A stretch of 18,335 nt of DNA from Cyanobacteriota bacterium (lineage in GTDB: Bacteria; Cyanobacteriota; Cyanobacteriia; PCC-6307; Cyanobiaceae), in the NCBI GenBank assembly GCA_026389255.1, contig JAPLIF010000195.1:1-18335 (forward strand), in the 5' to 3' direction. Below are positions 10,916 through 12,656 of the stretch, in pieces (within the stretch, counting starts at the first letter, position 1; each line of letters begins with the position of its first letter). Position numbers and translations under genes: made by a program. Under the pieces are notes generated by a model. The model made no database searches and had not been told where the DNA came from. It was given only the letters and a program-made list of their open reading frames with translations.

Positions 10916-10986
10916 GCGGGCGTAGTTTAGTGGTAAAACCTCAGCCTTCCAAGCTGATGATGCGGGTTCGATTCCCGCCGCCCGCT
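10916..10986 (+). tRNA. tRNA-Gly (anticodon TCC)
   Basis: A 71-base cloverleaf: acceptor arms GCGGGCG (10916-10922) and CGCCCGC (10979-10985) pair fully, with discriminator T at 10986. The D-arm contains AGTTTAGTGGTAAAACCT. The anticodon stem TCAGC/GCTGA encloses loop CTTCCAA, giving anticodon TCC. The T-arm is GCGGG-TTCGATT-CCCGC. No CCA is encoded. A run of seven T follows at once. The 3' part (from 10940) is duplicated at 12589-12656, marking this tRNA as an integration target. Confidence 0.97.
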
Positions 10987-11007
10987 TGTTTTTTTGATAG
11001 GGGTTTT
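10940..11007. repeat. attL-like direct repeat (3' part of tRNA-Gly plus 21 downstream bases)
   Basis: These 68 bases run from the anticodon stem to past the end of the tRNA and recur at 12589-12656 with only two mismatches. In this copy the T-loop reads TTCGATT and the acceptor stem is intact, so this is the functional tRNA side. Confidence 0.8.
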
Positions 11008-11012
11008 CTGCT

Positions 11013-11038
11013 GAAAGCCCTTGCTGTCACGGGCTTTC
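11013..11038. terminator. Hairpin between tRNA-Gly and the Fic gene end
   Basis: GAAAGCCC (11013-11020) pairs perfectly with GGGCTTTC (11031-11038) around a ten-base loop. It lies downstream of both the tRNA and the convergent Fic gene, where a shared terminator is expected. The T-run is before rather than after the hairpin on the + strand, so intrinsic termination is uncertain. Confidence 0.4.
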
Positions 11039-11134
11039 GCGGAAGCGCTTGCCCGCCAGATAGAAGCCAAATTGGCTTGGACGATCGCCCACAGCCTGAT
11101 CTCCGCCCTTCAGATCGGGGCTTGGGCATGGTGA

Positions 11135-12307
11135 TCAGAGCGGTTCAGTGCCCTCACCGAGGATCGCGAGGTAGTCGTCATAGGCGAACAGCCGATTGCG
11201 ACGCCCTCCAGTGATTTCACGGGCGATGCCGAGGCCCACCAGGGTTTCGATCGCCTTGCTAGCAGTTGGAAAACTCAGATCACCCAGCTGTTTGAGCTGA
11301 TTGATGCTGGTGAGCGGTCGCCGGCGCAAAGCCAAGTAGCACTGCTGCACACTCGCCCTGGAGCGGCCGAGCCCCACCAGCCGTGCCCCATCGGCGTGGA
11401 ACAGCTCCAGCAACCGCTCGGCCGTCGCCACGGCGCCTGATGCCGTGCTTTCGACCCCCTCAAGAAAAAAAGCGATCCAGGCTTCCCAGTCCCCGTTCTG
11501 CCGCACGCCGTCCAGCAGCTCGTAATAACGACTGCGGTGCTGCTTGAAGAACAGGCTCAGGTAGAGCAGCGGTTGCCCCAGCACGCCTGCATCAACCAGC
11601 ATGAGCACGATCAGCAGCCGGCCGAGGCGGCCGTTGCCGTCGAGGAACGGGTGGATCGTTTCGAACTGCACGTGGGTCAGGGCGGCGCGCACCAGCACCG
11701 GCAGGGTGTGCTCGCCCTGGGGCCCGCCGTGAATGAACTGCTCCATCGCGGCCATGCAGTCCTCCACTAGCCCCGGTGGCGGAGGCACGAAACTGGCGTT
11801 GCCCGGCCGGGTGCCGCCAATCCAGTTCTGGCTGCGCCGGAACTCGCCAGGCAGTCGATCGGCGCCGCGACCCCGGGCCAGCAGCCGGGCGTGGATTTCC
11901 CGCAGCAGGCGTGAAGACAGTGGGAATCCTTCCCCAAGCCTGGTCAGGCCGTGCTCCAGGGCGGCCACGTAACTGGAGACCTCCACCACGTCATCGAAGG
12001 GAACGCCGGGTGCTTCCTTCAGTTCAAACAGCAGTAGATCGGAGAGGGATGACTGGGTGCCTTCGATTTGGGAGGAAAGCAAGGCTTCCCGCCGCACGTA
12101 GGCGTAGAGAAACAACTCGGGATCGGGGAGCAGGGATGAGACCCCATCCAGGCGACCGCAGGCCAGAAGGGCCTGCTCGTGCAGCGCCTGCAAGGGTCCT
12201 TCCAGCACCACAGGCGGCTGGGGAGGCAGCGGCGCCGGCACGAAGGCCCGCACAGCTTCCCCGGCGGTGCTGGTGATCTCGAAGCGCCCGGTGGCGTCGC
12301 GCCGCAT
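11135..12307 (-). CDS. Fic domain protein (AMPylase-type), class II with N-terminal inhibitory helix and C-terminal winged helix
   Basis: Fic proteins transfer AMP or other nucleotide moieties to target hydroxyls. The 390-residue protein has the complete catalytic motif HPFLDGNGRLGR at residues 219-230 (His219 the general base). The target-binding flap SFVPPPPGLVE lies near residue 172. An inhibitory (S/T)xxxEG motif, S78-SQI-E82-G83, lies N-terminal to the Fic core, which defines class II. The C-terminal 80 residues (SVQQCYLALRRRPLTSINQL and SFPTASKAIETLVGLGIARE) look like a winged-helix DNA-binding domain. All key residues are present, so it should be active and self-inhibited. A purine-rich AGGGGGG lies about ten bases before the ATG at 12305-12307. 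It sits alone between the two tRNA-derived repeats, with paired inverted repeats just upstream that may be its own operator. Confidence 0.93.
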   Translation of the reverse strand: MRRDATGRFEITSTAGEAVRAFVPAPLPPQPPVVLEGPLQALHEQALLACGRLDGVSSLLPDPELFLYAYVRREALLSSQIEGTQSSLSDLLLFELKEAPGVPFDDVVEVSSYVAALEHGLTRLGEGFPLSSRLLREIHARLLARGRGADRLPGEFRRSQNWIGGTRPGNASFVPPPPGLVEDCMAAMEQFIHGGPQGEHTLPVLVRAALTHVQFETIHPFLDGNGRLGRLLIVLMLVDAGVLGQPLLYLSLFFKQHRSRYYELLDGVRQNGDWEAWIAFFLEGVESTASGAVATAERLLELFHADGARLVGLGRSRASVQQCYLALRRRPLTSINQLKQLGDLSFPTASKAIETLVGLGIAREITGGRRNRLFAYDDYLAILGEGTEPL

Positions 12308-12326
12308 GGATCCCCCCTGGGGCGAA

Positions 12327-12374
12327 CCTTGAATAAGCTCTGATCTTATTCAAGGGAAAGGGCTTTCCTTTGAA
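12327..12374 (-). promoter_or_regulatory. Nested palindromic operator upstream of the Fic gene
   Basis: Two overlapping inverted repeats lie 20-67 bases before the Fic ATG. The first is perfect: CCTTGAATAAG (12327-12337) with CTTATTCAAGG (12345-12355) around seven bases. The second, 12349-12374, has arms TTCAAGGGAAAG and CTTTCCTTTGAA with one mismatch. The result is three TTGAA/TTCAA half-sites starting at 12329, 12349 and 12370, about two helical turns apart. A binding site for the Fic protein's own winged helix is an inference. Confidence 0.6.
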
Positions 12375-12509
12375 CAAGGCCAGCCTGGTACTGGCCCTGG
12401 CGGGCACATAAGCGGCTGTTTCGCCGGTCCCAATTGCTGTCTCAGGGTCTTCCATTGGTTCGCTCGTCTGATGCTCCTGTCTAGTGCTGATAAGGGATTA
12501 GACGGGAAA

Positions 12510-12556
12510 ACGTCTCACCAAACATCTCACATGCTGCTTTTTCCTTGGTGAGAAGT
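12510..12556. promoter_or_regulatory. Inverted repeat just inside the distal att-like copy
   Basis: ACGTCTCACCAA (12510-12521) and TTGGTGAGAAGT (12545-12556) pair over 12 bases with one mismatch around a 23-base spacer. It lies 33 bases before the distal tRNA-derived repeat. It could be a recombinase arm site, an operator or a remnant; nothing in the sequence decides between these. Confidence 0.45.
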
Positions 12557-12588
12557 CAGCGGCGGCAATAAGATTGGGCGATTTATGG

Positions 12589-12656
12589 CTCAGCCTTCCA
12601 AGCTGATGATGCGGGTACGATTCCCGCCGCCGGCTTGTTTTTTTGATAGGGGTTTT
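12589..12656. repeat. attR-like direct repeat (partial tRNA-Gly copy)
   Basis: This 68-base copy of 10940-11007 starts within the anticodon stem, so no 5' half of a tRNA is present and it cannot be a functional tRNA. The two differences are T to A in the T-loop (TACGATT) and C to G in the acceptor stem, which breaks a pair. The trailing T-run and GATAGGGGTTTT are conserved. Confidence 0.8.

Follow-up and report, generated by a model that had tools for sequence, protein, structure and literature searches.

CIMEs are decayed derivatives of ICEs or IMEs that retain their att sites, and classical examples have been described in Streptococcus salivarius (PMC7563491). Tycheposons, first described in a picocyanobacterium, are tRNA-linked cargo elements of 4–200 kb with a tyrosine recombinase (PMC10872708). 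Other non-autonomous derivatives, among them CALIN arrays and MITEs, are thought to stem from loss of a recombinase gene (PMC11389934). Sofic, a class 2 Fic protein, acts as a single-protein anti-phage system via abortive infection and in E. coli is accompanied by a small downstream antitoxin (PMC12249575).

The locus described here, a Fic-carrying islet within a window of 18,335 nucleotides (the whole stretch of DNA analysed), resembles each of these systems in part. Like a CIME, it has attachment repeats at the 3' end of a gene, cargo and no recombination gene, and its 1.65 kb, which the original prediction had called unusually small, lies within the 1.2–13 kb given for the classical S. salivarius CIMEs in PMC7563491. 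Its ends are common to recombinase-bearing elements, fully on the right and over 42 nt only on the left; unlike CIMEs, whose parents are ICEs or IMEs, its parent is known as an integrase-bearing island only. As in a tycheposon, the islet is bordered by a tRNA gene, and the parental islands are comparable, but the islet itself encodes no tyrosine recombinase, whereas the islands of its relatives have one, and at 1649 nt it is smaller than any tycheposon in the range above. It shares with CALIN arrays and MITEs a non-autonomous state and a recombinase that was presumably lost, yet its sites are tRNA-derived cores with arm-like repeats rather than attC sites or terminal inverted repeats. Its cargo resembles the SoFic anti-phage system in being a class II Fic whose catalytic and inhibitory motifs are intact and which matches the PADLOC SoFic model, but falls below the NCBIfam equivalog cut-off and has no convincing AS1-like antitoxin ORF. 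We consider it highly probable that positions 10987 to about 12656 are a CIME-like deletion derivative of a family of picocyanobacterial integrative islands specific for tRNA-Gly(TCC). A narrow literature search turned up no description of this island family among the papers listed, which weakly suggests that it is unpublished. The features on which the argument draws are as follows, with G numbers denoting genomes of relatives.

9350..10843, minus strand: MFS_2 transporter gene, the left chromosomal anchor, syntenic in G019 and other relatives
10916..10986, plus strand: intact tRNA-Gly(TCC) (ARAGORN, Rfam), the chromosomal integration target, whose 3' part is the proximal (attL) core
10940..11007, plus strand: proximal repeat copy (core)
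10997..11038, strand not applicable: island left-end remnant, resembling the left ends of integrase-bearing islands
11039..11108, strand not applicable: 70-bp junction, in place of an integrase remnant in G235
11135..12307, minus strand: intact SoFic-like class II Fic gene, 390 aa (Pfam, PADLOC, PDB relatives, dN/dS)
12329..12353, strand not applicable: palindrome TTGAATAAG-N7-CTTATTCAA upstream of Fic, a putative operator
12509..12530, plus strand: two arm-like direct repeats, AACGTCTCAC / AACATCTCAC, putative integrase arm sites at -80 and -68 from the distal core
12577..12588, plus strand: island right-end motif GGCGATTTATGG
12589..12656, plus strand: distal repeat copy (attR core), two mismatches
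12657..12984, plus strand: right anchor, directly after the single tRNA-Gly copy in G019

A repeat search returned a 68-nt direct repeat with a spacing of 1649 nt, its copies 97% identical and differing at two positions: a T-loop base changes from T to A, and a base of the 3' acceptor strand from C to G. ARAGORN found tRNA-Gly(TCC) as the sole tRNA in the window, and Rfam concurred for 10800–16000; set against these coordinates, the repeat starts at tRNA position 25, runs to the 3' end and takes in 21 nt beyond it. In the genome to which the window belongs (2.10 Mb, 376 contigs, 78.8% complete), a query of the tRNA with its flanks matched in these two places only, with no third copy. The sole ORF with family support between the copies is the 390-aa Fic; PF00589 had seven matches in this genome and none between the repeats, where four integrase queries gave nothing better than E 0.46. 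The original prediction had described just this arrangement, a two-mismatch repeat of the tRNA 3' part plus 21 nt with the distal copy altered in T-loop and acceptor, flanking a single complete class II Fic gene and no integrase, and the searches agree with it on every count.

The closest relative read, G019 (about 92% nucleotide identity to the window), carries an exact empty site. Its 5.7-kb contig L079 matches the window from 9975 to 11006 at 92.3%, then directly from 12589 to 12984 at 90.9%, and later from 14567 to 15940 at 94.3%, with one core only and no Fic match. A 68-nt match of this sort lies far above chance, and the exact empty site is the footprint of an insertion or excision. The original prediction had attributed the repeat to integration at the 3' end of a tRNA, to be checked by empty sites in relatives and by other cargo between the same repeats; G019 provides the first and the islets of other relatives, described below, the second. 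With G019 as the single relative the polarity, insertion or excision, is left unfixed, the joint being that expected of either.

The DNA downstream has features of its own. The 21-nt tails that follow the tRNA sequence (10987–11007 and 12636–12656) are identical in the two window copies and different from G019, and G140 likewise has a duplicated tail. This combination is unpredicted by simple insertion and may reflect a tandem island or homogenisation; that the window tail is the same in both copies and island-like in G019 too could point to an older, decayed island downstream. At 12745–13300 lies a Phd/YefM-like antitoxin (PF02604, below cut-off) followed by an ORF that is fragmented in G019 and has no Pfam match, and which we take, by eye, to be RelE-like. 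A decayed integron integrase with in-frame stops occupies 14991–15460 on the minus strand, three pieces of it matching TIGR02249 (1.2e-22, 1.4e-8 and 1.4e-6), in DNA common to the window and G019; the toxin-like genes nearby might be old cassettes. Two adjacent ORFs at 13794–14473 (minus strand) have no Pfam match and none on the G019 contig.

The tRNA query was matched in 55 of 60 relatives, and of 300 family genomes searched with the 68-nt core, 276 had a match; loci were then selected for reading, the second batch being picked for long matches. An integrase match begins 162–200 nt past the repeat start in 17 of the 58 full tRNA-Gly(TCC) copies read and is lacking in the other 41, a proportion that is no measure of prevalence because the loci were partly selected for long matches; several of the 17 are fragments or are cut by contig ends. 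N- and C-terminal integrase matches lie in a single frame in G203, G076 and G141. The intact G203 integrase (436 aa) matches the PHROG_1 integrase at 9.1e-19 and no Pfam or NCBIfam model, and the C-terminal piece from G020 matches PF00589 only below cut-off; curated models thus support the island integrase weakly. A tblastn search of 50,697 phage records with the island integrase found no match, and a phage origin was rejected on this result, though the intact protein matches PHROG_1. In IMG/VR, one contig (54,965 bp) fits the exact right-end pattern, with an island right end and core at L312 9254–9386 that may mark a provirus boundary.

The ends of the islet are shared with these islands. Among the loci read there are 11 partial (distal) cores; the 12 nt that precede the core in the window are identical in G020, G030 and G132, similar in G203, G027, G141, G235 and G093, and more weakly so in G032, while in G222 they are unrelated and the end motif is missing. 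By BLAST, the 69–90 nt adjoining the core match the window at 74–88% in G020, G030, G203, G027, G141, G235 and G093, and in G132 the match extends over 901 nt at 82%, reaching into Fic. The 10-nt sequence AACRTCTCAC, with up to one mismatch, recurs at a distance of 12 nt; the pair lies at -80/-68 in 11 of the 15 right ends that were scanned (the window among them), and the other four have a single site. On the left, 8 of the 16 ends scanned have the pair at about +104/+116, a single site occurs in G235, G347 (imperfect) and G164, and there is none in the window, G169, G140, G027 and G246. Shuffled 200 times, the islet gave 0.125 sites on average and never more than 2, against 2 observed, so that the weight of this evidence rests on the conserved spacing. 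We interpret the repeats as putative integrase arm sites.

A query with the right end, which includes the end motif and the two arm-like repeats, matched 19 of 400 family genomes, our own included, at E values up to 1e-12. Just inside the right end, nine of these have Fic, at full length in G000, G256, G347, G164, G093, G235 and G141 and truncated in G132 and G133; G020, G169, G246, G203, G030, G302, G106, G027, G140 and G137 have no Fic match there. N-terminal vestiges of Fic nevertheless scored above 40 shuffles in G246 (68 vs 45) and G140 (65 vs 47), while in G169 the scores were hardly distinguishable from shuffles at the N-terminus (44 vs a shuffle maximum of 42) and the C-terminus (37 vs 36). 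A permissive pattern for the palindrome, run without a shuffle control, was matched by 14 of the 19 right ends. Six of the ten Fic-less ends (G020, G169, G246, G203, G030 and G027) are among them, and G302, G106, G133, G140 and G137 did not match. With these vestiges and palindromes in Fic-less right ends, Fic was probably an ancestral right-end gene. Fic also occupies other tRNAs: related genes lie behind tRNA-Met in G020 (L103 7415–10083, with an ORF matching the integrase query between) and in G030 (L105 8410–10484), and on contigs with tRNA-Val in G010 and G003. Fic fragments near tRNA-Gly with no second core, in G035 and G036 (L097 13421–13668; L098 3872–4114), are perhaps older relics.

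Nearest in structure to the window islet is G235, from another genus of the same family. Its 2.4-kb version, with cores 2408 nt apart, begins with the tRNA and the left end, continues with an integrase fragment that has an internal deletion, and closes with Fic, the right end and the distal core. Window positions 10997–11038 match its left end at 90% (local score 64, against at most 30 in 100 shuffles), and 11109–12354 match its Fic region at 91.3%. Between these two stretches the window has 70 bp (11039–11108) in place of 834 bp in G235, and is thus missing the integrase and the left arm sites. The 70 bp match neither side (score 20, shuffles up to 25), and a query across the junction (11020–11125) matched our own genome alone among 400 family genomes. 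We infer a deletion origin for the window islet from this comparison between lineages, with G235 as an intermediate form.

The Fic module has moved horizontally. At the nucleotide level the window Fic is 91.8% identical to that of G235 and 91.0% to that of G164, whereas the adjacent MFS gene is only 73.2% and 79.7% identical, respectively. A Fic tree joined the window with G235, G093, G164 and a LaPlata MAG at 100/98; judged by the named MAGs and genomes whose Fic genes are close, the window probably falls in the Cyanobium/Synechococcus group. The seven tRNA-Gly right-end Fics do not form one clade, requiring three label changes, and a single change was seen in 0% of 200 bootstrap trees. Integrase remnants lie beside near-identical Fic genes in G235 and LaPlata; the 4.5-kb G164 contig, with the same Fic and the same right end, gave no integrase match, which shows that an integrase neighbour is not constant. 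Among plasmid records, 1113 matched Fic, five of them at 60–80% identity, and the best listed match, at 66.2%, argues against a close plasmid source.

SoFic anti-phage proteins combine Fic_N and Fic domains with a catalytic motif HPFx(D/E)GNGRxxR and an N-terminal inhibitory motif (S/T)xxxE(G/N). The window protein has both motifs intact (HPFLDGNGRLGR and SSQIEG) alongside the Fic_N and Fic domains of Pfam, and so agrees with SoFic in domains and motifs. It matches the PADLOC SoFic model at E 2.4e-114 (380.5 bits, with no cut-off displayed), and its PDB relatives include the SoFic entries 3eqx and 3zcn. The NCBIfam SoFic equivalog gave 143.4 bits, far under its cut-off of 550, and we therefore call the protein SoFic-like rather than SoFic. 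Against G235, dN is 0.041 and dS 0.228, which fits purifying selection. Downstream of Fic there is no convincing counterpart of the small E. coli antitoxin AS1, and the small ORFs on both sides look unconvincing; a promoter scan found none, and terminator-like sites are no commoner than in shuffles. Judged from its family, anti-phage defence is the likely role of this Fic.

Islets and islands at tRNA-Gly span a wide range of sizes. On single contigs the cores are 1293 nt apart in G140, 1649 in the window, 1865 in G169, 2408 in G235, 3737 in G027, 6779 in G347 (with Fic at its right end), 9881 in G020 (with a frameshifted integrase) and 12621 in G246; match coordinates give 49.5 kb in G132, 100.8 kb in G030 and 113.4 kb in G141, and in G256 about 71 kb separate the two ends, which are on opposite strands. 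The four integrase queries found nothing better than E 0.09 in the window, G140, G169, G027, G347 and G246. As cargo, G140 has ORFs of PIN and MazE-like type; in G169 there is a Doc-like ORF together with a Phd-like fragment that narrowly misses the Pfam cut-off, and the larger G020 and G246 have a TOTE primase-helicase. The three smallest islets (G140, the window and G169) thus all have toxin-type genes, a number too small for statistics. Both repeat copies with unrelated sequence between them, which the original prediction had named as evidence against integration, do occur in form in Fic-less islets such as G020 and G027; as these belong to the same island family, the integration reading stands.

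An ordinary chromosomal Fic gene could have been caught between the halves of a partial tRNA duplication made by illegitimate recombination, with no mobile element involved. The repeat alone is compatible with such an event, as is the lack of a recombinase inside, but the right-end sequence common to islands in several genera, the constant spacing of the arm-like repeats and the precise empty site of G019 all argue against it; the empty site and the shared island ends rule out a simple duplication, and we hold this explanation to be almost certainly wrong. The islet might instead be ancestral to the window and G019 and have been lost from G019, either by precise excision or through RecA deletion between the repeats. 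A single relative cannot set the polarity, and the decayed downstream region is common to both genomes, but the high identity of Fic across genera suggests a recent arrival. Ancestral presence is unlikely, though it keeps some weight; it would leave the nature of the element unchanged, and its probability overlaps with that of the deletion derivative. The self-contained minimal element of the original prediction is not preferred, as the ends match integrase-bearing islands and the islet instead resembles a shrunken member of that family with Fic at its right end.

It is also conceivable that the Fic islet is a non-autonomous cassette, excised and inserted as such in trans when full islands supply the integrase, and that tRNA-Gly is the slot it uses. 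The islet retains both cores and the right arm pair, five further two-core islets or islands have no integrase match (G140, G169, G027, G347 and G246), of which the two smallest, G140 and G169, carry toxin-type genes, Fic is more similar across genera than the chromosome is, and G164 has a right-end Fic with no integrase match on that contig. Yet the left arm sites are absent from the window, G169, G140, G027 and G246 and reduced to one imperfect site in G347, and spread of the integrase-less form was rejected because its junction is confined to one genome in 400, its own. The integrase remnants beside near-identical Fic in G235 and LaPlata (G093 was read only 90 nt beyond Fic) mean that fuller islands can explain the spread of Fic. 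We therefore find movement of the islet as a cassette improbable. Mobilisation in trans, as the original prediction had it, is possible but gains no support from the missing left arm sites, the single-genome junction or the best match in our own genome to the C-terminal G020 integrase piece, which is 33% identical (E 8.8e-13). A wider proposal is likewise doubtful. In it, the tRNA-Gly(TCC) of picocyanobacteria would act as a swap slot for islets built of one toxin or defence module (SoFic-like, PIN/MazE-like, Doc-like), which would bear a core and right arm sites only and which the integrases of resident or visiting islands would insert and exchange in trans.

For the deletion derivative that we favor, the following course can be envisaged. 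As the anatomy of the islands suggests, the parental island would insert, by means of a tyrosine integrase, into the part of tRNA-Gly from the anticodon stem to the 3' end, so that one junction has a complete tRNA and the other a copy of its 3' part; of this, the empty site itself is observed. The right-end gene of the parental island would be a SoFic-like toxin, as seen in 9 of 19 right ends. Going by comparison with relatives, a deletion in the window lineage would have taken the integrase together with the left arm sites and whatever other cargo there was, and left behind the core, about 40 nt of left end, Fic with its putative operator, the right arm sites and attR. Fic, given its family and the purifying selection on it, probably persists as an auto-inhibited AMPylase, useful either against phages, through abortive infection, or for TA-like stabilisation. 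Renewed movement would require a helper integrase or accretion with a full island. Points that weigh against this course are the 70-bp junction with no match on either side, the tails that differ from G019, the G222 core with no end motif, the G164 contig with no integrase match, the ten right ends with no Fic match, the weak fit of the integrase to curated models and the incompleteness of our own genome.

A single tRNA thus presents a series from an integrase-bearing island through an islet with a broken integrase to an islet with none, and the survivor in the window islet is an anti-phage-type gene, probably an anti-phage gene in function, that sits at the island end. With defined ends, arm-like sites and a candidate cognate integrase, trans movement of recombinase-less islets becomes directly testable, and in harmless bacteria. 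Should the swap-slot reading prove true, tRNA-Gly(TCC) would be the tRNA counterpart of an integron cassette site, and a toxin gene would form part of the island end itself.
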